A stretch of 64,000 nt of DNA from Acidimicrobiales bacterium (GTDB lineage: Bacteria > Actinomycetota > Acidimicrobiia > Acidimicrobiales > MedAcidi-G1), in assembly GCA_014237715.1 (NCBI GenBank), contig JAAZZG010000006.1, forward strand, positions 1 to 64,000, read 5' to 3'. This document shows positions 29,598-44,060 of this stretch, in pieces. The notes under the pieces are model-generated. The model saw only the letters and a list, made by a program, of their open reading frames with translations, searched no databases and was not told the origin of the DNA. A program made the translations under genes and the position numbers. The first letter of the stretch is position 1. Each line of letters opens with the position of its first letter.

Positions 29598-31655
29598 ATG
29601 ATGCGAACCCTCGAAAGCCATGTCTGCGGGTTCTGGCACTCTCCGGCCGCCGACGGCACGGTGACCCACCACGCCGTCACCGGCGTACCGGTGGCGTCGG
29701 TGTCCAGTACGGGAATCGACTTCAGCGCGACAACCGCCTACGCCCGCGATGTCGGTGGCCCCACCCTCCGCTCGATGAGCTTCCATGAGCGGGCCGCTCT
29801 CCTCAAGGCCGTGGGCCAACTCCTGCTGGCCGAGAAGGAATCGCTGTACATCCTCTCCACAGCCACCGGTGCCACCCGAGCCGACTCGTGGATCGACATC
29901 GAGGGTGGGGCCGGGGTATTGCTGGGTTACGCGTCCAAGGGTCGCCGCGAACTGCCCAACGGGACCGTGCTGCTGGAGGGTGAGCCCGAGGTTCTAGCCC
30001 GAGACGGTTCGTTCCTGGCCGCCCACGTGGCTACCTCGCGCCTCGGTGTGGCCGTGCAGGTCAACGCCTTCAACTTCCCCATCTGGGGGGCACTCGAGAA
30101 GCTGGCCCCGGCGTGGCTGGCTGGCGTGCCGGCCATCATCAAGCCGGCCACCCCCACCGCCTTCCTGACCGAGGCCATGGTCCGCCTCATCGTCGATTCC
30201 GGGCTGGTGCCCGACGGTGCACTCCAGTTGGTGTGTGGAAGCGTCAGCGGCCTGCTCGACCACCTTGACGGTCAGGATCACGTGGCCTTCACCGGCTCGG
30301 CCGACACGGCAGCGGTCCTTCGGGCCCACCCGACACTGGTGGCCCGCTCGGTCCGATTCAATGCCGAAGCCGACTCGCTGAACGCGGCAATCCTCGGCAT
30401 AGCCGCCACACCAGGCACCACCGAGTTCGACCTCTTCACCTCCGAAGTGGTTCGGGAAATGACCGTCAAGGCCGGACAGAAGTGCACGGCCATCCGGCGG
30501 GCACTCGTCCCCGCGACGCAGCTCGACGCTGTGGCCGACGCGCTAGCCACCGCGTTGGCCGACGTGCGGGTCGGCGACCCCGCCGATGAATCCACCCAAA
30601 TGGGGGCCCTCGTCGGCACCACGCAGCGCGAGGAAGTACGCGGCGCGGTCATGAGCCTGCGATCGGCCACCGACGTGGTTGTCGACGCCTGCACCTTTCA
30701 TGACGTCGACCCATCGGTCGGCGCCTTTCTGGCCCCCACCGTGCTTCGAGCCACCGATCCCACCGCCCGGTCTATCCACGCCACCGAGGCATTCGGTCCG
30801 GTCTGCACGCTCATTGGCTACGACGGTCCCGACGACGCCATCCGGCTGGCCGCTCTTGGCGCCGGCAGCCTGGTGGCCTCAGTGGTCACCCCCGACGTTG
30901 ACGAGGCCGCGACCCTCACCCTGGGCATCGCTGCCCACCACGGACGAGTCCACGTGCTGGACGCCTCGACGGCCGCCACCTCCACCGGCCACGGCTCGCC
31001 GCTGCCCACCCTCGTGCACGGCGGCCCCGGACGGGCCGGCGGCGGCGAGGAGATGGGTGGCCTTCGGGGCATCCGCCACCACATGCAGACCTCGGCGATT
31101 CAGGGCTCGCCCGACGTGCTCACCGCGGTGACCGGCCAATGGATGCCCGGCGCCACCCGCCACGTCGATCGGGGCCACCCGTTCAAACTCCACTTCGACG
31201 ACCTGGAACTCGGTACGGCCATCCGGACCGACAGTCGCACGGTCACTCTGGAGGACATCGAGGACTTCGCCCACAGCACCGGCGACCACTTCTACGCCCA
31301 CATGGATGAACAGGCCGCAGCAGCCAGCCCGATCTTCGGCGGGCGGGTGGCCCACGGTTACCTCGTGCTGTCCTTGGCCGCCGGCCTGTTCGTGTGGCCT
31401 GATCCGGGGCCAGTGCTGGCCAACTACGGCATCGACCGGTGTCGCTTCGCCAAACCCACCTACCCGGGCGACACCCTGACCGTCTGGCTGACCGCCAAGC
31501 GAAAGACCCTGCGAACCGGTGCCGGCTACGGCGAGGTGGCATGGGACGCCCAGGTGGTCAACCAGGCCGCCGAGGTGGTGGCCGCCTATGACGTGTTGAC
31601 CATGGTGGCCAATCGTCCCGGCGTGAACGGCGCGGCCGAGTCGAAACCAGCCTGA
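29598..31655 (+). CDS. paaZ: Bifunctional oxepin-CoA hydrolase / 3-oxo-5,6-dehydrosuberyl-CoA semialdehyde dehydrogenase
   Basis: A 685-residue ring-cleavage enzyme of phenylacetate degradation. The N-terminal aldehyde dehydrogenase domain (about 1-510) has VQVNAFNFPIWGALEKLAPAWLAG, AFTGSADTAAVLR, RFNAEADSLNAAIL (general-base Glu) and the nucleophile Cys in VKAGQKCTAIRRALVP. The C-terminal MaoC-like hydratase domain (about 535-680) has DIEDFAHSTGDHFYAHMDEQAAAASPIFGGRVAHGY, with the Asp/His catalytic pair. Both halves are intact, so it should both hydrolyse oxepin-CoA and oxidise the aldehyde. The stop shares a base with the paaA start. Confidence 0.95.
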   Translation: MMRTLESHVCGFWHSPAADGTVTHHAVTGVPVASVSSTGIDFSATTAYARDVGGPTLRSMSFHERAALLKAVGQLLLAEKESLYILSTATGATRADSWIDIEGGAGVLLGYASKGRRELPNGTVLLEGEPEVLARDGSFLAAHVATSRLGVAVQVNAFNFPIWGALEKLAPAWLAGVPAIIKPATPTAFLTEAMVRLIVDSGLVPDGALQLVCGSVSGLLDHLDGQDHVAFTGSADTAAVLRAHPTLVARSVRFNAEADSLNAAILGIAATPGTTEFDLFTSEVVREMTVKAGQKCTAIRRALVPATQLDAVADALATALADVRVGDPADESTQMGALVGTTQREEVRGAVMSLRSATDVVVDACTFHDVDPSVGAFLAPTVLRATDPTARSIHATEAFGPVCTLIGYDGPDDAIRLAALGAGSLVASVVTPDVDEAATLTLGIAAHHGRVHVLDASTAATSTGHGSPLPTLVHGGPGRAGGGEEMGGLRGIRHHMQTSAIQGSPDVLTAVTGQWMPGATRHVDRGHPFKLHFDDLELGTAIRTDSRTVTLEDIEDFAHSTGDHFYAHMDEQAAAASPIFGGRVAHGYLVLSLAAGLFVWPDPGPVLANYGIDRCRFAKPTYPGDTLTVWLTAKRKTLRTGAGYGEVAWDAQVVNQAAEVVAAYDVLTMVANRPGVNGAAESKPA

Positions 31656-32590
31656 TGGGACGTACCTGGGCATCGATGGACGAGTTCGAGGCGTTCCTCG
31701 ACGACGGCGGCACCGTCGAGGTCGACGACGAGATGCCCGACGACTACCGGCAGGCGGTGTTCGCCTTCATCGAGATGCACGCCAACTCCGAACTCATGGG
31801 TGGTCTCACCGAACGAGACTGGATTCCCCGTACCCCCGGGCTTCGCCACAAGATGGCCGTCCTGGCCAAGACCCAAGATGAGATCGGCCACGGCCACCTG
31901 CTCTACATGGTGGCTGCCGACATGGGACTCAAGACCCGCCGCGAGATGCTGGAGGACCTGTTTGCCGGGCGGTCCAAATTCCACAACGTCTTCCACTACC
32001 GGGCCGCCACGTGGGGCGACCAGGTTGCCATCTCGTTCCTGGTCGATGCCGCGGCACTGGCCAGCCAGCAGGCCGTGTTCAAGAACTGCTCCTACGGCCC
32101 CTACCGGCGGATCCTGAAGCGGATCATTGCCGAGGAGGGGTTCCACATGCGGATGGGCGAGGAGCGGATGATGCTCATCGCCGAGGGCACCGACTTCCAG
32201 CAGGTCATGTTCCAGCAGTCGCTGAACAACTGGTGGTGGCCGGCCCTGCAGTTGTTCGGGCCTGATTCCAAGCCCGACGACGTGCTGCTGCGGTGGCACA
32301 TCAAGTCAGAACGCAACGAGGTGCTACGGGCCCGTTGGGTACAGAAGTTCGCACCGATGCTTATCTCGTACGGATTCACCATTCCCGATCCAGGCCTCGT
32401 CCACGATGCCGAGGCCGATACGTGGACTGCCGGTCCCATTGACTGGGAACCGCTGAAGCGCACCCTGGCCATGGGCGGGCCCGACTCGGCCCGACGCATC
32501 GGCGAGGCAGCCGCCAACTGGGCCGACACCCGCTGGGTGCGCGAGGCCATGGACAACGCACCCGACCGGGCCGCCGGAGCCCCAGCATGA
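31655..32590 (+). CDS. paaA: 1,2-Phenylacetyl-CoA epoxidase catalytic subunit A
   Basis: A 311-residue diiron oxygenase subunit that epoxidises the aromatic ring of phenylacetyl-CoA. Diiron ligands are visible as FIEMHANSE, KTQDEIGHGHLLYM (ExxH) and RIIAEEGFHMRMGEERMM (EExxH). KNCSYGPYRRILKRII and NNWWWPALQLFGPDS are conserved around the active site. It is coupled to paaZ upstream and overlaps paaD by 4 bp. Confidence 0.97.
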   Translation: MGRTWASMDEFEAFLDDGGTVEVDDEMPDDYRQAVFAFIEMHANSELMGGLTERDWIPRTPGLRHKMAVLAKTQDEIGHGHLLYMVAADMGLKTRREMLEDLFAGRSKFHNVFHYRAATWGDQVAISFLVDAAALASQQAVFKNCSYGPYRRILKRIIAEEGFHMRMGEERMMLIAEGTDFQQVMFQQSLNNWWWPALQLFGPDSKPDDVLLRWHIKSERNEVLRARWVQKFAPMLISYGFTIPDPGLVHDAEADTWTAGPIDWEPLKRTLAMGGPDSARRIGEAAANWADTRWVREAMDNAPDRAAGAPA

Positions 32591-33057
32591 CGTCGATCCC
32601 GACCGTGGAGGCCGTGCGAGCCGCGGTGGCCACAGTGGATGACCCGGAGTACCCGGGCATCTCCATTGTCGACCTCGGCCTTCTGGAGTCGGTCGAGGTG
32701 CGGCCAGACGGCGACGTGGTGGTCGGCCTGGTGCCGACCTTTTCGGGTTGCCCCGCACTGGCCATGATCGCCGAGGACGTCCACGCGGCCGTCGCCGCCG
32801 TTGGCGGGGTGACCGGCCCCCGGGTGGACATCCGCTGGCTCAGCGGTCCGGTGTGGACCGTGGAACGCCTGACCGGTACCGCCCGACGGACCATGGCTGA
32901 AGAGTTCACGGTTGCCGTCCGCATCGGTGCCGGCCCCGTGCCGTGCCCTCGCTGCGGCGGCGATACCGCCGAAGAGTCGATGTTCGGCCCCAGTCGGTGT
33001 CGGGCTGTCCACGTGTGCCATTCGTGTACCGAGGTCGTGGAGGTGATGCGGGCCTAG
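32587..33057 (+). CDS. paaD: 1,2-Phenylacetyl-CoA epoxidase subunit PaaD (DUF59)
   Basis: A 156-residue Fe-S assembly-type protein for the epoxidase. The N-terminal DUF59 domain has VDDPEYPGISIVDLGLLESVEV and PTFSGCPALAMIAEDV. The C-terminal zinc-ribbon-like part carries CPRCGGDT and CHSC. Gene order here is A-D-B-C rather than the enterobacterial A-B-C-D-E. It overlaps paaA and is followed 13 bp later by paaB. Confidence 0.93.
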   Translation: MTSIPTVEAVRAAVATVDDPEYPGISIVDLGLLESVEVRPDGDVVVGLVPTFSGCPALAMIAEDVHAAVAAVGGVTGPRVDIRWLSGPVWTVERLTGTARRTMAEEFTVAVRIGAGPVPCPRCGGDTAEESMFGPSRCRAVHVCHSCTEVVEVMRA

Positions 33058-33070
33058 ACCCGCCAACACC

Positions 33071-33367
33071 ATGAAGCGCTACGAGGTGTTCCTCAAAAAG
33101 GACGGTCGGGACGAGTACCGCCATGCCGGGTCGCTGGACGCACCCGACGACGAGTTGGCCCTCGTGTTGGCCCGCGAGTCCTACCTGCGCCGAGCCGAGG
33201 CCGACCGGTTGTGGTTGGTCGACCGGGAGCATCTGGTGGTGGGCAATACCGACTTCGTTGCCCCCAACGCAGACAAGCCCCACCGCCACAACGACGGCGA
33301 ACGCATCGCCGAACGGCGGAAGCGCCTCCGCGAGGCACAGAAATACACCGGAGAGGATGCATCATGA
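33071..33367 (+). CDS. paaB: 1,2-Phenylacetyl-CoA epoxidase subunit B
   Basis: A 98-residue PaaB. It begins KRYEVFLKKDGRDEYRHAGSLDAPDDELALVLARESYLRR, the classical PaaB opening, and continues LWLVDREHLVVGN. PaaB bridges PaaAC heterodimers in the multicomponent epoxidase. The stop overlaps the paaC ATG by 4 bp. Confidence 0.95.
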   Translation: MKRYEVFLKKDGRDEYRHAGSLDAPDDELALVLARESYLRRAEADRLWLVDREHLVVGNTDFVAPNADKPHRHNDGERIAERRKRLREAQKYTGEDAS

Positions 33368-34152
33368 CCGGCCCGTGGAACGCCGACATCCGGGAGTTCG
33401 TCCTGGCCTTCGCCGACGACGAGCACCTGATGGGCCAGCAGCACACCGAGTGGATCGGCGTGGCCCCGTTCCTCGAGGAGGATCTGGCCTTCAGCTCCAT
33501 CGGGCAGGATGAGTTAGGTCACGCCGCCACGCTGTACGCCATCGTGGCCGGCGAAGGAGACCCCAACCGTGAGGGAGGCATCGACGACCGGCGACTCGAC
33601 GCTTTGGCCTTCGACCCCGACCCCTCACGGTGGCGCTCGGCACATCTGGTAGAGGCCACCACTGACGACTGGGCCCATGCGCTAGTTCGGCACTGGCTCT
33701 ACGACACCGCCGAACAACTCCGATGGGAGCTCGTTGCCGAGTCCACACTCGAACCACTCGCCGGCGCAGCTGCCCGTGCTGAACGCGAGGAGTGGTTCCA
33801 CCGTCGCCACGCCGACGGCCTGCTAGACGTGCTGCTACCGGCACCCGGTGCTGGCGACCGGCTCCGGGCGGCGTTGACCGACCTGCTCCCCCTCGCCGTG
33901 GGCCTCTTCGACCCGGTGGCCGGCGAGGTCCAGGCGGTGGCGTCAGGCGTGACGATCGCACCGTTCGATTCCAGAATGCCCGAGTGGGCTGACCGAGTCC
34001 GAGCCCGCTTCGACGGCGACCTCTCATCGATCGACCTGTCACCGTCCGACCGGGCGACCCCAACCGGTCGGACGACTCGCAGTAATGCCTTTGGTCCACT
34101 GTTGTCGAGGATGCGCGAGGTACTCGACCTCGACCCCGCCGCTATCTGGTAG
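33364..34152 (+). CDS. paaC: 1,2-Phenylacetyl-CoA epoxidase structural subunit C
   Basis: A 262-residue inactive ferritin-like partner of PaaA. It starts MTGPWNADIREFVLAFADDEH, where a longer upstream reading is the out-of-frame paaB region. Helix motifs are EDLAFSSIGQDELGHAATLYAIV and AEREEWFHRRHADGLLD. PaaE, the reductase that normally completes the complex, is not encoded downstream; the next gene is a proline racemase homologue 59 bp away. Confidence 0.94.
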   Translation: MTGPWNADIREFVLAFADDEHLMGQQHTEWIGVAPFLEEDLAFSSIGQDELGHAATLYAIVAGEGDPNREGGIDDRRLDALAFDPDPSRWRSAHLVEATTDDWAHALVRHWLYDTAEQLRWELVAESTLEPLAGAAARAEREEWFHRRHADGLLDVLLPAPGAGDRLRAALTDLLPLAVGLFDPVAGEVQAVASGVTIAPFDSRMPEWADRVRARFDGDLSSIDLSPSDRATPTGRTTRSNAFGPLLSRMREVLDLDPAAIW

Positions 34153-34211: not shown

Positions 34212-35225
34212 ATGGTGCTGGGCCCCGACGAGGTGATCGTCGCCGACGATTACCACACGGCCGGCGAGCCGTTCCGCATCGTCGACCTGGGCCCGATGGA
34301 GGGCACCACTGTGCTGGACCGTCGGTCGTGGGCCATGGCCAACCTCGACGACTACCGACGATTCCTGATCCACGAACCACGCGGGCACGCCGACATGTAC
34401 GGCGGCATGGTCGTACCTCCCAACGAACCCGCTGGTGGAGCGGCCGGCGATCTCGGCGTGGTGTTCTTCCACAAGGACGGCTTCTCGACGGCATGTGGCC
34501 ACGGCACCATCGCCATGGCCACTTGGGGCATCGACACCGGACGCCTCCAGGTACCTACCGACGGCGAGGCACCGGTGGTGGTCGACGTTCCGTCGGGACG
34601 CCTGCACACCGTCGCCAGAATGGAGGCGGGCCGGGTGGCCTCGGTGCGATTCACCAACGTCGAGTCCTTCGTGACAGCCCGCGACCTCACCGTGCAAACC
34701 AATCTCGGACCGGTGACCGCCCACGTGTCGTTCGGCGGCGCGTTCTACGCCTCGGTGTCCATTGACAAGCTGTCCGTCTCCTGTTGCCCCTCTGACGTAG
34801 ACCAACTGATCGTCCTCGGTCGGGAGATCAAGGCGGAGCTGGCCGATCACCCGTCAGTCGTCCATCCGACCGACAACCGGCTGTCCGGCCTCTACGGCAC
34901 GATTCTCCACGAGACGGTCATGTCGAACTGCGGGTCGCTCCATCAGCGAAACGTGACGATCTTCGCCGACGGTCAGGTCGACCGGTCGCCCTGCGGGTCA
35001 GGAACCTGTGCCCGACTGGCTCTGCTCCACGATGCCGGTGACCTCGATGTCGGCGCCACCTTCCTAAACGAGGGTGTGGCCGGTGGCGTGTTCGACGCCC
35101 GGGTCGAGGCAGCTACCAGCACCGGGATCATCCCGAGCGTGGAGGGCTCGGCCCATCGGCACGCCACCACGACCTTCCACCTCGACCCACATGATCCCAT
35201 GAACCTGGGATTCTTGTTCCGATGA
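34212..35225 (+). CDS. Proline racemase / hydroxyproline 2-epimerase family protein
   Basis: A 337-residue PLP-independent racemase family member. The first catalytic Cys is in GFSTACGHGTIAMA and the second in DRSPCGSGTCARLALL. Keeping both Cys favours a racemase/epimerase over trans-3-hydroxyproline dehydratases, in which the second Cys is Thr. NEPAGGAAGD and GTILHETVMSN fit the family. The substrate is undetermined. It is followed 25 bp later by an ornithine cyclodeaminase homologue, a pairing seen in hydroxyproline or D-proline catabolism, yet it sits between paaC and paaK. Confidence 0.88.
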   Translation: MVLGPDEVIVADDYHTAGEPFRIVDLGPMEGTTVLDRRSWAMANLDDYRRFLIHEPRGHADMYGGMVVPPNEPAGGAAGDLGVVFFHKDGFSTACGHGTIAMATWGIDTGRLQVPTDGEAPVVVDVPSGRLHTVARMEAGRVASVRFTNVESFVTARDLTVQTNLGPVTAHVSFGGAFYASVSIDKLSVSCCPSDVDQLIVLGREIKAELADHPSVVHPTDNRLSGLYGTILHETVMSNCGSLHQRNVTIFADGQVDRSPCGSGTCARLALLHDAGDLDVGATFLNEGVAGGVFDARVEAATSTGIIPSVEGSAHRHATTTFHLDPHDPMNLGFLFR

Positions 35226-35250
35226 CCCGTCGCTCAATACCGGCCCCGCT

Positions 35251-36186
35251 ATGACAGGCCTCCCCCATTTCGATGCCAAGGCCATCCGAGCGGTGGTCGA
35301 CATGCCGACCTGCATCGAGGCCCTCCGGGAGGGCAGCCGGGAGTTGGGCAAGCTCCACCCCCGGGCTCAGGTACCGCTCGGCCCGGGCGACGACTTCCTG
35401 ATGATGCCGGCGGTGTCACCAGCCGGGATCGGAGTGAAGATCGTCAACGTCGTCTCGGGCAACCGCGACCGGGGACTACCCCTCATCCACGGCTTCTACC
35501 TCTACTGCGATCGGGAGACCGGGGTGCCGGCGGCCACGCTGGACGGCTCGGCGCTGACCACCCTGCGTACTCCGGCGGCTTCGGCTCTGGCTGCAGACCT
35601 CCTGGCTAGTCGAGATGCGACGACGCTCGGTGTGTTCGGCACCGGTATCCAAGCCCGAGGCCACATCGAGGCGATGCTGGTGGTGCGACCAGGCATCGAC
35701 CGCATCGTGGTGTCCGGTCGAACTGCCGCTTCGGCGGTCGGCTTCGTGGCCGACCCCGACGTGCAGGCGTTGGCTGGCGATCGGGAACTGGTGAGCGGAA
35801 CGCCCGAGGAGACCGCGGGGTGTGCCCTGGTGTGCGGTTGCACCTCGTCGACCGAGCCGGTGATTCCCACGACCGCCGTCCGTCCGGGCGCCCACGTGGG
35901 GTTGGTCGGCAGTTACTCGACGGCCCGCCGGGAGGTCGAGGCCGAGCTGCTGGCCAGGGCCACGGTCTTCGTCGATGACCGCCATGCCGCAGCCCACGAG
36001 GCCGGTGACCTGATGGTGCCCGCCGAGGCCGGCGACTGGTCATTCGATGCGGTGGCCGGTGACCTCGCCGAACTCTGCCTTGGAACCGCTGGGCGACGAG
36101 ACGATGACGAGATCACCTTGTTCAAGTCAGTCGGCCTGGCCGTCTGGGACCTGATCGTGGCCGGAGCAATCGTCCGGGCTGACTGA
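35251..36186 (+). CDS. Ornithine cyclodeaminase / mu-crystallin family protein
   Basis: A 311-residue NAD(P)-dependent protein. Markers are GFYLYCDRETGVPAATLDGSALTTLRTPAASALAADLLA and the Rossmann motif TLGVFGTGIQARGHIEAML. Family members include ornithine cyclodeaminase, ketimine reductases and delta1-pyrroline-2-carboxylate reductase. Next to a proline racemase homologue, the pyrroline-2-carboxylate reductase option is most plausible, but this is inference. It ends 22 bp before the paaK operator. Confidence 0.87.
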   Translation: MTGLPHFDAKAIRAVVDMPTCIEALREGSRELGKLHPRAQVPLGPGDDFLMMPAVSPAGIGVKIVNVVSGNRDRGLPLIHGFYLYCDRETGVPAATLDGSALTTLRTPAASALAADLLASRDATTLGVFGTGIQARGHIEAMLVVRPGIDRIVVSGRTAASAVGFVADPDVQALAGDRELVSGTPEETAGCALVCGCTSSTEPVIPTTAVRPGAHVGLVGSYSTARREVEAELLARATVFVDDRHAAAHEAGDLMVPAEAGDWSFDAVAGDLAELCLGTAGRRDDDEITLFKSVGLAVWDLIVAGAIVRAD

Positions 36187-36254: not shown

Positions 36255-37589
36255 ATGCCCCTCCCCTTCGACCCCGTGGACACCATCGGTCTTCCCGCAG
36301 AGCAGAAGCGCTCACTGCAGGGCGAACGCCTGTCCGCGCTGGTGGACCGACTGGCCACCGGCGACAACGCCTTCTGGTCCGAACGTCTGGCTGACATCGC
36401 CCCGGCGTCGATCACCTCGGTGGACGATCTCACCCGCCTGCCGTTCACCGTCAAGCAGGACCTCCGCGACCAGTACCCGTTGGGCATGGTCACAATCCCG
36501 GTGGAGGCCACCACCCGTCTCCACGCCAGTTCCGGCACCAGCGGGAAGCCGACGATTGTCGTCTACACCCCCGCTGACCTCGCCATCTGGGCGGAGGTGA
36601 ATGCCCGGGCCCTTGCCCTGGCCGGCACCCGATCCGACGACATCCTCCACAACGGCTACGGCTACGGCCTGTTCACCGGTGGCCTCGGCCTTCACTACGG
36701 CGGGGAGCGCCTCGGCTGCACCGTCGTGCCCGTGTCGGGTGGCAACACCGCCCTCCAACTCCAGCTCCTCGAAGACCTGGGCAGTCGGGTGCTGTCGGCC
36801 ACGCCCTCGTTCTGCCTCGTTCTGGCCGAACGGGCCCATGCCCTGGGCATCCGGGACCGACTCGGCGTCGAGATCGGCATCTTGGGCGCCGAACCGTGGT
36901 CCGAGGGCATGCGCGAGCGCATCCACGAGGCATGGGGCGGCAACTTCACCGCACTGGACATCTACGGCCTATCGGAGATCATCGGCCCCGGCGTAGCCAT
37001 GGAGGCCCCCGATGACCTCGGTGCCCTGAACGTCTTCGACGACCACTTCCTACCCGAGATTGTGGATCCGGCCACCGGTCAGCCCCTACCCGATGGCGAG
37101 TTCGGCGAATTGGTTATCACCACGCTCACCAAGGAAGCCATGCCGATGCTTCGGTACCGCACCGGCGACATCACCCGGATCCTCCCCGATACGGGTGACA
37201 CGGCCGGGCCCGGCACCCGCCACTGGACCCGGATGGCCCGCCTCACCGGGCGGGCCGACGACATGCTCATCATCCGGGGCATCAACGTGTACCCGCGCGA
37301 GATCGAGGCCGTCCTGATGGACGATCCAGACGTGGGTGCCAACTACGCCATCGTCGTGGACCGCCGGGGTCCCATGGTCGAACTCCGGGTTCGCGCCGAG
37401 GCCACGACAGCGGCCAGCTCGGCCACCAACCTGGTCGCCGGCGCCGAACGCCTGGCCAGGATGATCACGGAACGCATCCGAATCCGAGCCGACGTCGAGA
37501 TGGTGCCCGAGGGCTCTATGCCGCGCACCGAGGTCGGCAAGGTCAAGCGGGTCTTCGAGCAAGTCGACGACACCGATCCCTTGGAATGA
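36255..37589 (+). CDS. paaK: Phenylacetate-CoA ligase
   Basis: A 444-residue AMP-forming ligase that activates phenylacetate, the entry step of the paa pathway. The P-loop-like motif is LHASSGTSGKPTIVVYT. It also has YGLSEIIGPGVAMEAPDD, ELVITTLTKEAMPMLRYRTGDI, the hinge-region DDMLIIRGINVYPREIEAVLM and the C-terminal MPRTEVGKVKRV lysine. The ATG at 36255 follows TTAGGAT by 6-8 bp. Its own operator at 36209-36224 suggests it can be transcribed separately from paaZADBC. Confidence 0.95.
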   Translation: MPLPFDPVDTIGLPAEQKRSLQGERLSALVDRLATGDNAFWSERLADIAPASITSVDDLTRLPFTVKQDLRDQYPLGMVTIPVEATTRLHASSGTSGKPTIVVYTPADLAIWAEVNARALALAGTRSDDILHNGYGYGLFTGGLGLHYGGERLGCTVVPVSGGNTALQLQLLEDLGSRVLSATPSFCLVLAERAHALGIRDRLGVEIGILGAEPWSEGMRERIHEAWGGNFTALDIYGLSEIIGPGVAMEAPDDLGALNVFDDHFLPEIVDPATGQPLPDGEFGELVITTLTKEAMPMLRYRTGDITRILPDTGDTAGPGTRHWTRMARLTGRADDMLIIRGINVYPREIEAVLMDDPDVGANYAIVVDRRGPMVELRVRAEATTAASSATNLVAGAERLARMITERIRIRADVEMVPEGSMPRTEVGKVKRVFEQVDDTDPLE

Positions 37590-37680: not shown

Positions 37681-38913
37681 GTGTCGGACCGCCCCGAGGA
37701 CACTCCTGAACAGGCCGAATTTCGCTCCGCGTCGCGCTCCTTCCTAGCTGAACACGCCGAACCCCGTACCCAGATCGACCCCTGGCAGGTGTCCGGCTTC
37801 CCCGACGACGCCGAGGCGAAGGTGTACTTCGAACATGGTCGTGCCTGGCAGCGGACTCTGGCCGACCACGGATGGGCCGGTCTGACCTGGCCTGCCGAGT
37901 TCGGCGGCGGTGGCCGCCCACCATGGACCGACCGCATCCTTAGAGAAGAATCCGCGGACTACGGCTCCCACCCCGGCTTCATCGGCGCCACCATCGCCAT
38001 GCTCGGACCCACCTTGCTGGCCCACGCATCAGATGAACTCAAGGCCCGGTTCCTCCCGTCTCTGCTCAGCGGCGAGGTGGCCTGGTGCCAGTTATTCAGT
38101 GAACCGGGCGCCGGTTCGGACCTGGCCAGCCTCTCCACCCGGGCTGTACGGGACGGCGACCACTGGGTGGTCCACGGCCAGAAGGTCTGGAACTCATGTG
38201 CCCAGTTCACCGACTGGGGCTTCCTGCTGGTCCGCACCGATCCCGATGCCCCCAAGCACCGTGGCATCACCTTCCTACTGGTCGACATGACCTCGCCGGG
38301 CATCGAGGTCCGACCCCTCGTGCAGGCCAACGGGTCGTCGCACTTCAACGAGGTCTTCCTCTCCAGCGTCCGGATCCCCACCGACCAGATGGTGGGCGAG
38401 GTTCACGGAGGCTGGACTCCAACCCGCACCGTGCTGGCCAACGAGGCGGCGTTCATCGGTCGCGGCGGAGGTGCTCCAGCCTCGGACCGCCTCCGTGACC
38501 TCGCCGCCCGACACGGTGGACTCGACGATCCCACCGTCCGCCAACGCCTGGCCCTGATCATCAGCCGGGAACGCCTCCAGAGCCTGATGGGCCAACGGAT
38601 CCAGTCTGCGGTCCGAGACGGACAACGACCCCCCTTCGATCCAGCACTCACCAAGTTGCTGGCCGCCGGCACCAAGGTTCTGACTGGTGACCTGGCCGCC
38701 GACCTGGCCGGCCCATCAGCCATTGCCGGTCCGGTCACCGACGACCGGGAAGGCACGTGGGTCAGAGCCGAGGTCCTGAACCGCTTCGCCATTTCCATCG
38801 GCGGAGGCACCACCGAGGTCCAGAAGAACAATCTGGCCGAACGGTCACTGGGGCTCCCACGGGAACCGGCCAACGACCGAGAAGCCGCATGGAAGGATGT
38901 CCTCCGCAGCTGA
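37681..38913 (+). CDS. Acyl-CoA dehydrogenase
   Basis: A 410-residue FAD-dependent acyl-CoA dehydrogenase starting at GTG. FAD-binding motifs are QLFSEPGAGSDLASL and WNSCAQFTDWGFLLVRTD; the C-terminal FAD/dimer motif is ISIGGGTTEVQKNNLAERSLGLPREP. This is the longer-chain or unusual-substrate actinobacterial subgroup, and the substrate is not assigned. It sits between paaK and a fused transporter, so it may act on products of aromatic or side-chain degradation. Confidence 0.9.
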   Translation: MSDRPEDTPEQAEFRSASRSFLAEHAEPRTQIDPWQVSGFPDDAEAKVYFEHGRAWQRTLADHGWAGLTWPAEFGGGGRPPWTDRILREESADYGSHPGFIGATIAMLGPTLLAHASDELKARFLPSLLSGEVAWCQLFSEPGAGSDLASLSTRAVRDGDHWVVHGQKVWNSCAQFTDWGFLLVRTDPDAPKHRGITFLLVDMTSPGIEVRPLVQANGSSHFNEVFLSSVRIPTDQMVGEVHGGWTPTRTVLANEAAFIGRGGGAPASDRLRDLAARHGGLDDPTVRQRLALIISRERLQSLMGQRIQSAVRDGQRPPFDPALTKLLAAGTKVLTGDLAADLAGPSAIAGPVTDDREGTWVRAEVLNRFAISIGGGTTEVQKNNLAERSLGLPREPANDREAAWKDVLRS

Positions 38914-38938: not shown

Positions 38939-41191
38939 GTGACCGAAGAACACACCGAGGAGTCAATGTCCTCCGGGGAAACCCCCGGCGAGACAGGCGA
39001 GGGCAGCAACGCCGCGTCTCTCGCGGCATCTGTACTGGCCGAAGAGGCCGCTCGCCACGCCGAGCAGGAAGCCAACCAGATCATGTTCCCCGATGAGCTG
39101 CTGCCAGGGGTCAACAGCGCCGGTCTGTCGCTGAAGAAGGGGCTCGCTATGGGTGGCGGCGCAGCGACCTTCGTCGTACTGGCCATCCTTAACTCGCTGG
39201 ACGAACTCCAGATGGCCGCCATCTCCGTGCTGGCCCCCGACATCCGCGACACCTTCGGGGTCAGCGACGGCACCATCACATTCATCGCCAGCTCATCCGG
39301 TGCCTTTGTGGTACTGGGCGCCATCCCCATGGGCTGGGCGGCCGACCGGTTCCGACGGATCCCCATCATCGGCTGGTCCAGCATCATCTTCGGCGCCATG
39401 GTGGCCATGTCAGGTTGGGCGGTGAACGCCTTCACCTTCTTCTGGGCCCGGTTCGGCGTCGGGATCGCCAAGGCCAACACCATCCCGGTCCACTCGTCGG
39501 TCATTGCCGATACCTACCCCATCGGCATCCGTGGCCGCATCGGCGCCATCGACAAGGGCACCGGTCGCCTCCTGGCCGTGACCAGCCCAATCCTCGTAGG
39601 CGCCATTGCAGCAGCAGCCAATGGCCCAGGCGAGATCGACGGCTGGCGCTGGGCCTACTACCTCCTTGGGATTCCAGTGGCCGTGGCCGCCATCGCAGCC
39701 TTCTTCCTGAAGGAGCCCCTGCGGGGACGCTGGGAAAAGGAGGACGTGCTTGACGAATCGTTTACCGAGGACGACCCCCTCCCCGTCTCCATGGACGCCG
39801 CCTTCTCCCGCCTCATGCAGATCAAGACCATCAAGACGGTGGTCGTCGGCTTTAGCGCACTGGGCTTCGGCCTGTTCACCGCCCCGGTGCTGGAGAACCT
39901 CTGGCTAGAGGACGAGTTCGGACTCGAATCGTTCGAACGGGGAGCATGGGGCACCGTGGCCGGCCTGGCCACCGTCGGCGCCCTGATCTACGTGGGCCCC
40001 AAGTTCGACCGGATGTGGCGTGAGAACCCGACCCGGACCCTGCACCTGGTGGGCGCACTCATCGGCTTTTCAGCCATCTTCAAACCCATCCAGTGGGCCA
40101 TGCCAACCGTTCCGCTGTTCATCGGCTTCTCGATCCCCACGCTGGTCATGCTGAGCACGGCGTTCGCCATGGTCGGTCCGCTCATGCAGGCCATCGTCCC
40201 CTATCGCCTTCGGGGCACCGGCACGGCGCTCATCACCCTCTACATCTTCTTCATCGGCGGCACGGGCGGCGGCCTCATCTCGTTCATGTTCGCCGATTCC
40301 TGGGGGCCTCGCGTCACCACGCTGGTACTGACCGTGCCCAGCGCCCTCATCGGCGGCTGGATCATGTACCGGGGCGCTCGCCACATCCGCGGCGACCTCT
40401 CCCTGAACGTCCAGGAACTGCTCGACGAACAGGACGAACAGCGCCGGGCCGATGGCGACGGCGAGGTGCCCGCACTGCAGGTCAACAACCTGGACTTCTC
40501 CTACGGGTCGGTCCAGGTCCTTTTCGACGTGGCCTTCGAGGTAAAGAAGGGCGAGACTCTGGCCCTGCTGGGCACCAACGGTGCAGGCAAGTCCACCATC
40601 CTCCGGGTCATCAGTGGCCTAGGCGTCCCCCAGCGGGGCGTGGTGCGACTGCACGGCCGCACGGTCACCTACTCGTCGCCCCAACTGCGGTCCCGACTCG
40701 GCATTCAGCAGCTGCCGGGAGGCAAGGGCGTGTTCGGCGACATGACCGTCCGCCAAAACCTGGTCATGGGCGCCTACGTCCATCGGGCCGACAAGGCTGA
40801 CGTGGAACGGCGCATCGCCGACGTGCTCGACCTCTTCCCGGATCTGGCCAACCGCCAGAGCCAGCGTGCCGTGTCGATGTCCGGTGGCCAGCAGCAGATG
40901 CTGGCCCTGGCCCGTGTTTTGCTCCATGAGCCCGAGGTCCTGCTCATCGACGAGCTGTCCCTCGGCCTGGCCCCCACCGTCGTCCAGGACCTCCTGATTC
41001 TCATCGAACGCCTCCAGGAACGCGGTCAGACCATCGTCGTCGTCGAGCAGTCGCTGAACGTGGCCCTGGCCATTGCCGACCGGGCCATCTTCCTCGAAAA
41101 GGGCCAGGTTCGGTTCGAGGGCGCGGCCTCCGAGCTGGCCGAGCGCGACGACCTGGCCAGAGCCGTCTTCCTCGGAACGGACGGTGGCTGA
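38939..41191 (+). CDS. MFS permease fused to a LivF-type ABC ATPase
   Basis: A 750-residue single polypeptide. After an acidic N-terminal ~45 residues, about 50-450 form an MFS transporter (ILNSLDELQMAAISVLAPDIRDTFGV, GWAADRFRRIPIIG after TM2, ARFGVGIAKANTIPVHSSVIADTYP, then a second six-helix bundle). Residues about 480-750 are a LivF-like ATPase: Walker A ALLGTNGAGKSTIL, signature VSMSGGQQQMLALARVL, Walker B EVLLIDELSLGLAP, H-region VVVEQSLN. GTG at 38939 is preferred (GGGGGA 8 bp upstream); an in-frame ATG at 38897 overlaps the upstream gene. No frameshift separates the domains. Confidence 0.9.
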   Translation: MTEEHTEESMSSGETPGETGEGSNAASLAASVLAEEAARHAEQEANQIMFPDELLPGVNSAGLSLKKGLAMGGGAATFVVLAILNSLDELQMAAISVLAPDIRDTFGVSDGTITFIASSSGAFVVLGAIPMGWAADRFRRIPIIGWSSIIFGAMVAMSGWAVNAFTFFWARFGVGIAKANTIPVHSSVIADTYPIGIRGRIGAIDKGTGRLLAVTSPILVGAIAAAANGPGEIDGWRWAYYLLGIPVAVAAIAAFFLKEPLRGRWEKEDVLDESFTEDDPLPVSMDAAFSRLMQIKTIKTVVVGFSALGFGLFTAPVLENLWLEDEFGLESFERGAWGTVAGLATVGALIYVGPKFDRMWRENPTRTLHLVGALIGFSAIFKPIQWAMPTVPLFIGFSIPTLVMLSTAFAMVGPLMQAIVPYRLRGTGTALITLYIFFIGGTGGGLISFMFADSWGPRVTTLVLTVPSALIGGWIMYRGARHIRGDLSLNVQELLDEQDEQRRADGDGEVPALQVNNLDFSYGSVQVLFDVAFEVKKGETLALLGTNGAGKSTILRVISGLGVPQRGVVRLHGRTVTYSSPQLRSRLGIQQLPGGKGVFGDMTVRQNLVMGAYVHRADKADVERRIADVLDLFPDLANRQSQRAVSMSGGQQQMLALARVLLHEPEVLLIDELSLGLAPTVVQDLLILIERLQERGQTIVVVEQSLNVALAIADRAIFLEKGQVRFEGAASELAERDDLARAVFLGTDGG

Positions 41192-41192
41192 A

Positions 41193-44060
41193 ATGGACGT
41201 GCTTGCCTCGGAACTGGTCGCCTCCCCCGTGGTTCTGGCCGTCTGGACCACCCGTCAGCTCTGGTTCGACGGCCTCGTCAATGGCATGGTCTTCGGTCTG
41301 CTGGCCCTCGGGGTGGTGCTCATCTACCGCTCCACCAGGGTCATCAATCTGGCCGTCGGCAACATGGGCCTGCCTGCCTCAGGCCTCATGGGCGTCATGG
41401 TCATCAACTACGGATTCCCGTACTGGGCGGCCCTGGCCCTGGCCCTGCTGGTCGGAATTTCGGTGGGCGCCATCGTCGAACGGGCGATCATCCGTCGCCT
41501 GTTCGACGCTCCCCGGGTCATCGTGCTGGTGGCCACCATTGGTGTGGCCCAGCTCATGCAGGCCGTCCTGGCCTCGTTCCCCGACATCGAGAAGGTCCGG
41601 GGCCAGCGTTACCCGGTGCCCCTTGGATTCAAGTGGAACGACGTCTTCGGCCTGCGGATAACCGGACCGAAACTCACCATCCTCGTCCTCGTTCCCCTTC
41701 TAGCCCTTGGCCTGTCGTGGTTTCTGAACCGGACGGTGTTCGGCCAGACGGTGCAAGCCTCGGCATCGAACGCCGACCTGGCACGGATCTCGGGCATCGA
41801 TCCCAAGACGGTTCAACTCTTCGTCTGGACGGTGGCCGGCCTGCTCTCGAGCGTGTCGCTGCTGCTGCTCTCGGGCAACCGTGGCTCGATCACCGGCATG
41901 GCCAACCTGGGACCCAACACCATGTCGAGGGCCCTGGTCGCCGCGGTGATCGCGGGCATGGTCTCGTTTCCCCGCGCCATCATCGCCGGCCTGTTGATCG
42001 GCGTGGCCCAGGCCCACGTGCAGTTCCTGTTTCTCGAACAGGGCGGGCTGATCGACTTCATTCTCTTCATCGTGGTGGCCGTCGCCGTGGCCTTCCAAAG
42101 CCGGGGTGCCGCCGAGTCCGAAGGATCGTTCTCCTTCTCGGCCCGACGTCGACCCATCCCGGAACGACTCCGGGAAATCTGGTGGGTCCGGCGGATGTCA
42201 ACCATCGCCCTGGGCCTTCTGCTGGCCATCGCCGTCGTACTGCCCCTCCTGGTGACCCGCCCGTCCCGGCATCTGCTGTACGCCAGCATCATCGCTTTCG
42301 CCGTGTGTGCCGTGTCGATGACCATCGTGACCGGCTGGGCCGGACAGCTCTCGCTCGGTCAGATGACGTTCGCCGGCGTCGGCGCTCTCATGGCTGCCGG
42401 ATTCAACCGGGGCCTCGAAGTCGGCATCGGCATCGGCGACTGGCACTTCTTCACGATCAGCTTTCCCCGGGTTCCGTACCTGATCTCGATGCTGCTGGCG
42501 TCTCTCGTCGCCGCCGCGGTAGCGGCCCTCATCGGACTCGGCGCGCTCCGCGTCAAGGGTCTACTGCTTGCCGTGACCACCTTCGCCTTCGCCCTGGCCG
42601 CCCAGCAGTACGTGTTCCGACGTCCCGCCTTCAACGGTGGTTTCACCCAGAGCATCCCGTTCCGTCGGGGCAGCATCGGACCGATCAACCTGGACAGCCA
42701 GCGTTCGTACTACTACCTGTGCCTCGCCGTCCTGATCCTCGTGCTCGTCGTCGTGCGGGCCCTGCGAGCCAGCGGTGTCGGGCGATCAATCATCGGCGTA
42801 CGAGAGAACGAATACACCGCGGCGGCCTACACGGTCGGTCCGTCACGTACGAAGCTCACGGCGTTCGCACTTGCCGGTGGGATCGCCGGGCTAGGCGGTG
42901 CCCTGCTCGGCGGCCTCGTGCAGAACATTCCCTACACCGAGCGCCTGTTCCAGATTGGCGACTCGTTGCGCCTGGTCTCCATGGTGGTAATCGGTGGCCT
43001 GGGCACCCTGATGGGTCCGGTCATTGGAGCCATGTGGGTGGTCGGCCTGCCTGCCTTCTGGCCTGACAACGACCTCGTTCCGCTGTTCACCTCCAGCATC
43101 GGCCTGCTGATCTTGCTGCTCTACTTCCCAGGCGGCCTGATCCAGATCGCCTACGCGGCGCGCGATGCCGCGCTCCGACTTGCCGAGGCGCGTCTCGGTG
43201 AGGCTTCCACGGAGCGGACGACGGTACCCCCGGCGGTGGTCTTCAACCGAAGCGCCGCACGTCCGGTGCTGACCGGCCCGGCCCTCGCGGTCACCGACGT
43301 ATCGGTCACCTTCGGTGGCCTCCGGGCTGTGGACAAGGCCTCCGTGTTCGCCCAACCGGGCGAGGTCGTGGGCCTTATCGGTACCAACGGCGCCGGCAAG
43401 TCGACGCTCATGAACGCCATCGGTGGATTCGCCCCGTCTGAGGGCACCATCGAGATCCTCTGCCGGGATGCCTCACAAATGAACTCAGCCAACCGGGCGC
43501 GTCTGGGTCTAGGACGGACCTTTCAGGCAGCCCGCCTGTTCCCCGACCTCACCGTTCGCGAGACCGTGCAGGTCGCCCTCGAAGCACGGGGACGTACCGG
43601 TCTGTTGTCGACCGCCCTCCACCTCCCCTCGGCCACCCGGGCAGAACGGTCCAAGCGGTCCGACGCCGACGACCTGATCGGCTTCCTGGGCCTTGGCCGC
43701 TACTCCGATGCTTTCGTGGCCGACCTCTCGACCGGGACCCGACGTATCGTGGAACTGGCCGGTCTACTGGCGCTCGATGCACAGGTTCTCTGTCTGGACG
43801 AACCAACCGCCGGCATTGCCCAGCGGGAGACCGAGGCATTCGGACCACTGCTCAAGCAGATCCAGCAGGAACTGGACGCCACTCTGATCGTGATCGAACA
43901 CGACATGCCCATGATTATGGCCCTATCCGACCGGGTCTACTGCCTGGAGGCCGGACAGGTCATCGCACAGGGCACTCCGGATGAGGTGCGAAACGATCCA
44001 CAGGTGTTGGCCAGTTATCTGGGTACCGACCAGCGGGCCATCGACCGCTCCGACTCCTAA
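41193..44060 (+). CDS. LivH-LivM-LivG triple fusion (branched-chain amino acid-type ABC transporter)
   Basis: A 955-residue protein starting 1 bp after the previous stop. Residues about 20-300 are a LivH permease (FDGLVNGMVFGLLALGVVLIYRSTRVINLAVGNMG). About 335-640 are a LivM permease (AVSMTIVTGWAGQLSLGQMTFAGVGALMAAG, FALAGGIAGLGGALLGGL). About 690-955 are a LivG ATPase (Walker A GLIGTNGAGKSTLMNAIGGF, LGRTFQAARLF, degenerate signature DLSTGTRRIVELAG, Walker B VLCLDEPTAGIA, IVIEHDM). With the LivF half on the neighbouring MFS fusion, two genes encode all four cytoplasmic-membrane components. No periplasmic binding protein is nearby. Confidence 0.92.
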   Translation: MDVLASELVASPVVLAVWTTRQLWFDGLVNGMVFGLLALGVVLIYRSTRVINLAVGNMGLPASGLMGVMVINYGFPYWAALALALLVGISVGAIVERAIIRRLFDAPRVIVLVATIGVAQLMQAVLASFPDIEKVRGQRYPVPLGFKWNDVFGLRITGPKLTILVLVPLLALGLSWFLNRTVFGQTVQASASNADLARISGIDPKTVQLFVWTVAGLLSSVSLLLLSGNRGSITGMANLGPNTMSRALVAAVIAGMVSFPRAIIAGLLIGVAQAHVQFLFLEQGGLIDFILFIVVAVAVAFQSRGAAESEGSFSFSARRRPIPERLREIWWVRRMSTIALGLLLAIAVVLPLLVTRPSRHLLYASIIAFAVCAVSMTIVTGWAGQLSLGQMTFAGVGALMAAGFNRGLEVGIGIGDWHFFTISFPRVPYLISMLLASLVAAAVAALIGLGALRVKGLLLAVTTFAFALAAQQYVFRRPAFNGGFTQSIPFRRGSIGPINLDSQRSYYYLCLAVLILVLVVVRALRASGVGRSIIGVRENEYTAAAYTVGPSRTKLTAFALAGGIAGLGGALLGGLVQNIPYTERLFQIGDSLRLVSMVVIGGLGTLMGPVIGAMWVVGLPAFWPDNDLVPLFTSSIGLLILLLYFPGGLIQIAYAARDAALRLAEARLGEASTERTTVPPAVVFNRSAARPVLTGPALAVTDVSVTFGGLRAVDKASVFAQPGEVVGLIGTNGAGKSTLMNAIGGFAPSEGTIEILCRDASQMNSANRARLGLGRTFQAARLFPDLTVRETVQVALEARGRTGLLSTALHLPSATRAERSKRSDADDLIGFLGLGRYSDAFVADLSTGTRRIVELAGLLALDAQVLCLDEPTAGIAQRETEAFGPLLKQIQQELDATLIVIEHDMPMIMALSDRVYCLEAGQVIAQGTPDEVRNDPQVLASYLGTDQRAIDRSDS

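Follow-up and report, generated by a model that had tools for sequence, protein, structure and literature searches.

The stretch of DNA analysed here (the window: 64,000 nucleotides, positions 1 to 64,000 of contig JAAZZG010000006.1 in assembly GCA_014237715.1, from an Acidimicrobiales bacterium) carries two adjacent genes in which a secondary transporter of the major facilitator superfamily (MFS) and the parts of a Liv-type ATP-binding cassette (ABC) importer are fused. The features of this cassette are as follows, transmembrane helices being abbreviated TM.

38939..41191, + strand: MFS-LivF fusion gene; GTG start, an ATG at 38966 also being possible; 20 near-full-length homologues among the matches listed
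39146..40435, + strand: MFS domain, residues 70-499, complete fold (Pfam MFS_1; predicted model against solved structures)
39470..39472, + strand: Lys178 in TM4, at the site of the Spns proton-switch glutamate, HnSpns Glu129 (alignment against the available part of PMC9440201)
40388..40468, + strand: linker helix, residues 484-510, that joins the MFS part to LivF (model; alignment of 33 fusions)
40469..41188, + strand: LivF-type ATPase, with Walker A GTNGAGKS and signature SMSGGQQQ both intact (Pfam, NCBIfam)
41193..44060, + strand: LivH-LivM-LivG (LivHMG) fusion gene, 1 bp 3' of MFS-LivF
41193..42152, + strand: LivH-like permease (BPD_transp_2; UrtB model)
42210..43262, + strand: LivM-like permease (second BPD_transp_2 stretch; UrtC model)
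43281..44057, + strand: LivG-like ATPase, signature LSTGTRR (Pfam, NCBIfam)

Both genes are single open frames with no internal stops and are separated by 1 bp, the TGA stop of MFS-LivF at 41189-41191 being followed by the LivHMG ATG at 41193. In the first gene Pfam recognises MFS_1 at residues 82-441 (2.6e-32) and ABC_tran at 530-672; in the second it recognises BPD_transp_2 twice, ABC_tran and a BCA_ABC_TP_C tail, which makes it LivH-LivM-LivG. An initial annotation of the window had proposed this arrangement, with an MFS carrier in covalent linkage to an ABC ATPase of the Liv type and a paired neighbour gene holding both permeases and the partner ATPase, and in this it is borne out. The LivHMGF or HAAT importers form family TC 3.A.1.4, and the cassette has the parts that define them: two permease units, and LivF- and LivG-type ATPases with Walker A and C-loop. 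The nearest NCBIfam models of the ATPases are UrtE/LivF and LivG/UrtD, none of which reaches its curated cut-off. The LivG signature had been taken for degenerate, and this proved mistaken: it is conserved among the cassettes, reading LSTGTRRI in 18 of 19 and LSTGSRRI in the other. The comparison group is weak, as 41 of the 62 other LivG-like stretches gave no hit to the signature pattern.

Recurrence of the cassette

The window genome is a draft assembly of 75 contigs, the window lying on contig C66, which lends some weight to the concern that a sequencing, assembly or frameshift artefact had joined separate genes. A genome scan with MFS-LivF, however, gave at least 78 loci, and among the matches listed the near-full-length ones (L016-L035) have MFS and LivF in one frame in 20 of 20; LivHMG lies immediately downstream in 19 of these, the contig ending there in L020. 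Three of the 20 are from cultured isolates with RefSeq isolate records, and the isolates hold ten matches to the MFS part (five in Yinghuangia seranimata, three in Y. soli and two in Embleya scabrispora), every one of them fused to LivF. With the intact frames of the window, these copies in other genomes rule out the artefact, whose probability is practically nil.

Within the window's own genome the whole MFS-LivF protein has 59 matches, and the MFS part is covered solely by the window's copy. Of the 296 genomes of the class that were scanned, 92 gave a match at 1e-60 to the full-length MFS-LivF protein, a figure that takes in matches to LivF only; from these rows we read 50 genomes as having a cassette of type A or C (our labels), including the contig-cut G020, G064 and G146, the last counted on its LivF and LivHMG. 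The diverged cassettes of G051 and G285, seen later, are outside the 50, and the 19 loci behind weaker class-scan rows held no further type A cassette. In a scan of the phylum the MFS part was matched at 1e-30 in 12 of 396 genomes. The gene caller is based on GC frame and misses genes, no MFS gene having been called in L035, L147 and L152.

The fused MFS domain

The initial annotation had allowed that the MFS part might lack a complete set of helices; residues 70-499 of the predicted model align to whole solved MFS transporters, and the fold is therefore complete. The top structural match of this part is Spns, tied with OxlT. When the MFS part was used in a sequence search of solved structures only weak matches were returned (EmrB, 3.9e-5), and the top 50 Foldseek matches listed are all ABC proteins, found via the ATPase part. 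The dN/dS of the MFS part is 0.03–0.15, not looser than that of LivH/LivM; it is clear that it is under strong purifying selection.

Residue conservation was counted over an alignment of 33 fusions. Motif A, which lies between TM2 and TM3, is retained (Asp136 in 32, Arg137 and Arg140 in all 33), as are the TM1 acid and the TM4 arginine, all of these being nearly invariant. The HnSpns charge relay, the RxxxG motif and the TM4 Glu129 are taken from the available part of PMC9440201; D136, R140, D191 and R171 stand at a constant offset of 49 from HnSpns D87, R91, D142 and R122, and a glycine follows four residues after R171 in 28 of the fusions. The resemblance to Spns thus extends from the fold to the motif A Asp-Arg, the TM4 Asp relay and the TM4 RxxxG spacing. 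The differences are the fusion to an ABC ATPase and the TM4 switch itself, since position 178 is Lys in 24 fusions, Arg in 3, another residue in 6 and Glu in none. Judged by these residues, the MFS part is Spns-like but outside the Spns family, and the TM4 pair Arg171 and Lys178 suggests an anionic ligand. In the linker helix Asp486 is invariant (33/33).

A tree was built from 46 of the 55 MFS rows, six near-copies or partial sequences and three contig-cut ones having been dropped. The 30 domains of type A/C make up a single clade (98/90), and the type-B domains, described below, cluster with the free-standing MFS of L200 and L210 (100/99). The MFS domain of L188 falls among free-standing MFS (99/97) and its LivF among the fused LivFs, a group supported at only 87/90; because the two parts fall in different groups, a partner swap is likely in L188, its MFS having probably been exchanged once. 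Types A and B may reflect two gains, or one gain with several losses.

Two constrained groupings were rejected by the approximately unbiased test: all fused MFS as one clade apart from the free-standing ones (log-likelihood 176 lower, p 5.4e-6; 170 lower without L185), and a single clade of type A/C and L188 (43 lower, p 9e-5). The tested groups were named after the tree had been seen, and the long branches of L185 and L188 weaken the result.

Relatives of the cassette and its probable binding protein

Among 20 loci fetched, four have a single MFS-F-G protein, which we call type B (L153:8880-11891, L155:8264-11254, L157:3736-6639 and L154), with LivH-LivM beside three of the four; L158 has MFS-F, HM and G as its proteins. 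The same modules therefore recur, with the MFS placed before LivF. Relatives with no MFS are common. They share the Liv modules, partly fused, and many have the type-B binding protein beside them; they differ in that the profile found no MFS domain before LivF. Nocardioides (L068) has an HMG fusion, LivF as a gene of its own and no MFS; the LivHMG fusion is by itself ordinary. One Frankiales metagenome-assembled genome has H-M-F-G in one protein at two loci, L037 and L039, and no MFS was found by profile before LivF there. Of the 19 weaker-row loci, 17 are H-M-F-G, HM + F-G or F-G without MFS, L220 is a contig-cut MFS-F-G and L231 is unclear; the type-B binding protein adjoins 17 of the 19. 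L191 has a binding protein, LivF as a separate gene, and HMG. From the arrangements of these MFS-less kin, the position of the MFS in type B is the junction of H-M and F-G.

Several individual arrangements were also seen. L156:9373-11571 is an MFS-LivF with a binding protein, LivHMG being absent from the 18 kb read, and its partner may lie elsewhere. All four Liv modules occur in one H-M-F-G protein of ~1,250-1,470 residues as called, with no MFS and the type-B binding protein beside it, in L037:7090-10881, L039:2717-6604, L232, L233 and L235-L238. In L190:6749-8716 and L193:4884-7121 LivF carries a membrane domain of ~400 residues, which has no Pfam match and may be a decayed MFS. In L231:3648-5864 the ~200 residues ahead of LivF-LivG include about four hydrophobic stretches; the MFS profile does not match them, and they may be a remnant.

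In the window and in its close kin the cassette has no binding protein next to it. The initial annotation's statement to this effect holds for the window; as a property of the system it is not supported, since a binding protein lies beside the cassette in many relatives. Forty-one loci were surveyed (the window, L016–L035 and L139–L158; L139 and L023 are one place, and L152, where no cassette gene was called, was left out of the neighbour scan), and in 17 of the 41 a Liv-type lipoprotein-like gene lies no more than four genes from the cassette. The four type-B loci have a different binding protein of ~600 residues, one copy of which is cut by the end of the stretch. Pfam matched the binding-protein copy of L028 with Peripla_BP_6 (2e-15) and left those of L145 and L153 unrecognised; the other binding proteins were named by our own profile, A1.

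In the window's own genome, matches to PF13458 lie on contigs C5, C22, C30 and C3, with none on C66. Three strong A1 matches are on C74, C22 and C11, the C74 copy at a contig end, and no Liv permease was seen near these three genes in the stretches of 9.7–19.5 kb that were read. All ten close genomes tried have A1 matches (best E 5e-84 to 1e-32). Across the class, A1 is present at 1e-40 in 55 of the 296 genomes: in all 50 that we read as having a cassette of type A or C, and in 5 of the 246 others, a contrast for which the Fisher value takes no account of genome relatedness. Nine of the 50 fed the profile; without them, 41 of 41 carry the binding protein. Of the five genomes outside the 50, G051 has HMG next to a diverged MFS-LivF, G087 has an unfused LivF, G111 is a short contig, and G071 and G294 carry a diverged membrane part on LivF. 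G285, with a very diverged cassette and a weak A1 match (113 bits), is neither among the 50 nor in the 1e-40 list. From this co-occurrence the system would work with a Liv-type binding protein. A frame of 1,130 residues in L184:8969-12358 seems to encode two such proteins in tandem, and L175 and L183 have apparent cut copies at contig ends.

Proposed mechanism, substrates and gene context

As a rule, ATP-driven (primary) and gradient-driven (secondary) transport are regarded as the work of distinct machines. The reading that we favour, with a probability of about 0.5, is that the cassette is a Liv-type (HAAT) importer in which the MFS, which looks capable of transport, is a permanent extra membrane subunit working on the same substrate flow. 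A lipid-anchored binding protein, to which co-occurrence points, would catch the solute outside and hand it to LivH-LivM, and, by analogy with the family, the LivF/LivG ATPase pair would drive uptake. The conserved cytoplasmic helix would tie LivF to the C-terminal end of the complete Spns-like carrier, and the fusion would thereby hold the carrier beside the ABC core. The amphipathic organic acid or conjugate taken up by the ABC core, or its breakdown product, would most likely be the carrier's substrate as well; ATP-driven uptake and the secondary carrier would then serve one substrate flow. In the window's clade one core is probably shared by several binding proteins encoded elsewhere. More speculatively, the cassette might be a hybrid machine whose two arms serve one substrate flow: import of, for instance, a conjugated or aromatic acid by the ABC arm would be accompanied by export or exchange of a product through the MFS arm, with conformational cross-talk via the LivF linker helix. 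The MFS would then be a cartridge open to exchange, acquired or replaced on more than one occasion just before LivF on related Liv chassis.

Several observations weigh against an importer with an MFS subunit. Proton coupling as in Spns is doubtful because 27 of the 33 fusions have Lys or Arg in place of the TM4 glutamate. Related Liv systems have no MFS (17 of the 19 weaker-row loci, L037 and L039; LivF is a separate gene in L191), and the MFS is therefore an add-on, dispensable to the ABC core. The substrates, probably bulky or aromatic organic acids and their conjugates, are read from gene context only. Finally, in three relatives the membrane part joined to LivF has diverged, with no Pfam MFS match in L190 and L193 and a weak one in L185, which suits a structural role. 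That these diverged domains are still fused to LivF, and that the Spns proton switch is missing, would also be expected if the MFS part transported nothing and served as a receptor, a scaffold or an ATPase regulator; a few MFS carriers have gained receptor functions, according to the part of the 2021 TCDB paper available (PMC7778945). However, a pure scaffold need not keep motif A, the TM1 acid and the TM4 arginine, and we consider such a role improbable.

Alternatively, the polypeptide could hold two independent transporters, the fusion fixing their expression and stoichiometry while they handle different compounds of one pathway, such as a conjugate moving in and an aglycone or by-product moving out. 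The retained transporter motifs and strong constraint of the MFS would fit this, as would the MFS-less Liv systems and the apparently swapped MFS of L188. In Rhodococcus jostii RHA1, as described in the available part of PMC8399759, CamABCD (ABC) and CamM (MFS) are separate transporters for different cholate metabolites; the likeness, the nearest in function known to us and drawn from that description, is that an ABC system and an MFS carrier take up related bulky metabolites. Yet among the loci read there was no clear case of this MFS unfused beside an unfused cassette, the lone MFS genes beside Liv genes or a binding protein (L196, L199, L201 and L208) all being cut by a contig end or N gap, and the linker helix is conserved beyond the needs of a passive tether. 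Two separate transporters are possible but doubtful.

The favoured Liv-type importer with its MFS subunit would share with LivHMGF systems the two permeases, the LivF and LivG ATPases and a Liv-type binding protein in the family; it differs in the MFS fused before LivF, in H, M and G being one protein, and in a binding protein encoded away from the cassette in the window's clade. Fusions of MFS carriers to another functional domain are already known: the Sensor Kinase-MFS Fusion family 2.A.1.34 appears in the available part of a TCDB-based survey (PMC3924187), its partner being a sensor kinase and not an ABC ATPase. The listings of open-access literature searched for such fusions showed no description of one between MFS and LivF, TCDB and subscription papers being outside this search, and the cassette is a variant of the Liv-type importer not found described. 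If the proposal is true, a conserved MFS-ABC ATPase polypeptide would allow a direct test of whether one complex can apply both energy sources to one substrate; it would also imply a design in which specificity changes by swapping, and provide an annotation rule for many Acidimicrobiia genes.

The cassette is the end of a same-strand run of genes that contains phenylacetate degradation genes, in agreement with the aromatic or acyl setting first proposed for it.

37681..38913, + strand: acyl-CoA dehydrogenase, directly upstream, probable operon (Pfam; also the neighbour in most members of the window's clade)
36255..37589, + strand: PaaK-like phenylacetate-CoA ligase (NCBIfam TIGR02155, 4.8e-140; 466.8 bits, below the cut-off of 646.3)
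29598..34152, + strand: PaaZ, PaaA, PaaD-like (just under cut-off) and PaaC (NCBIfam)

Phenylacetate is not singled out by gene context. In the isolates a glycosidase or sulfatase is near seven of ten cassettes (rhamnosidase at L026, L030, L217 and L219; GH3 or GH1 at L213 and L216; sulfatase at L212), the neighbours of L214, L215 and L218 being mostly outside the domain tests. Other type A neighbours are a rhamnosidase (L143), sulfatases (L025, L146), P450s (L027, L142), a CoA ligase with a flavin oxidoreductase (L147) and a CoA-transferase (L146). The neighbours tested were chosen by us, and the counts are not an enrichment test. A frame of 677 residues near the cassette of L027 (L027:4265-6295) has no Pfam match at 1e-8. 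In the window, proline-racemase-family and ornithine-cyclodeaminase-family genes lie at 34212-36186, between PaaC and the PaaK-like ligase.
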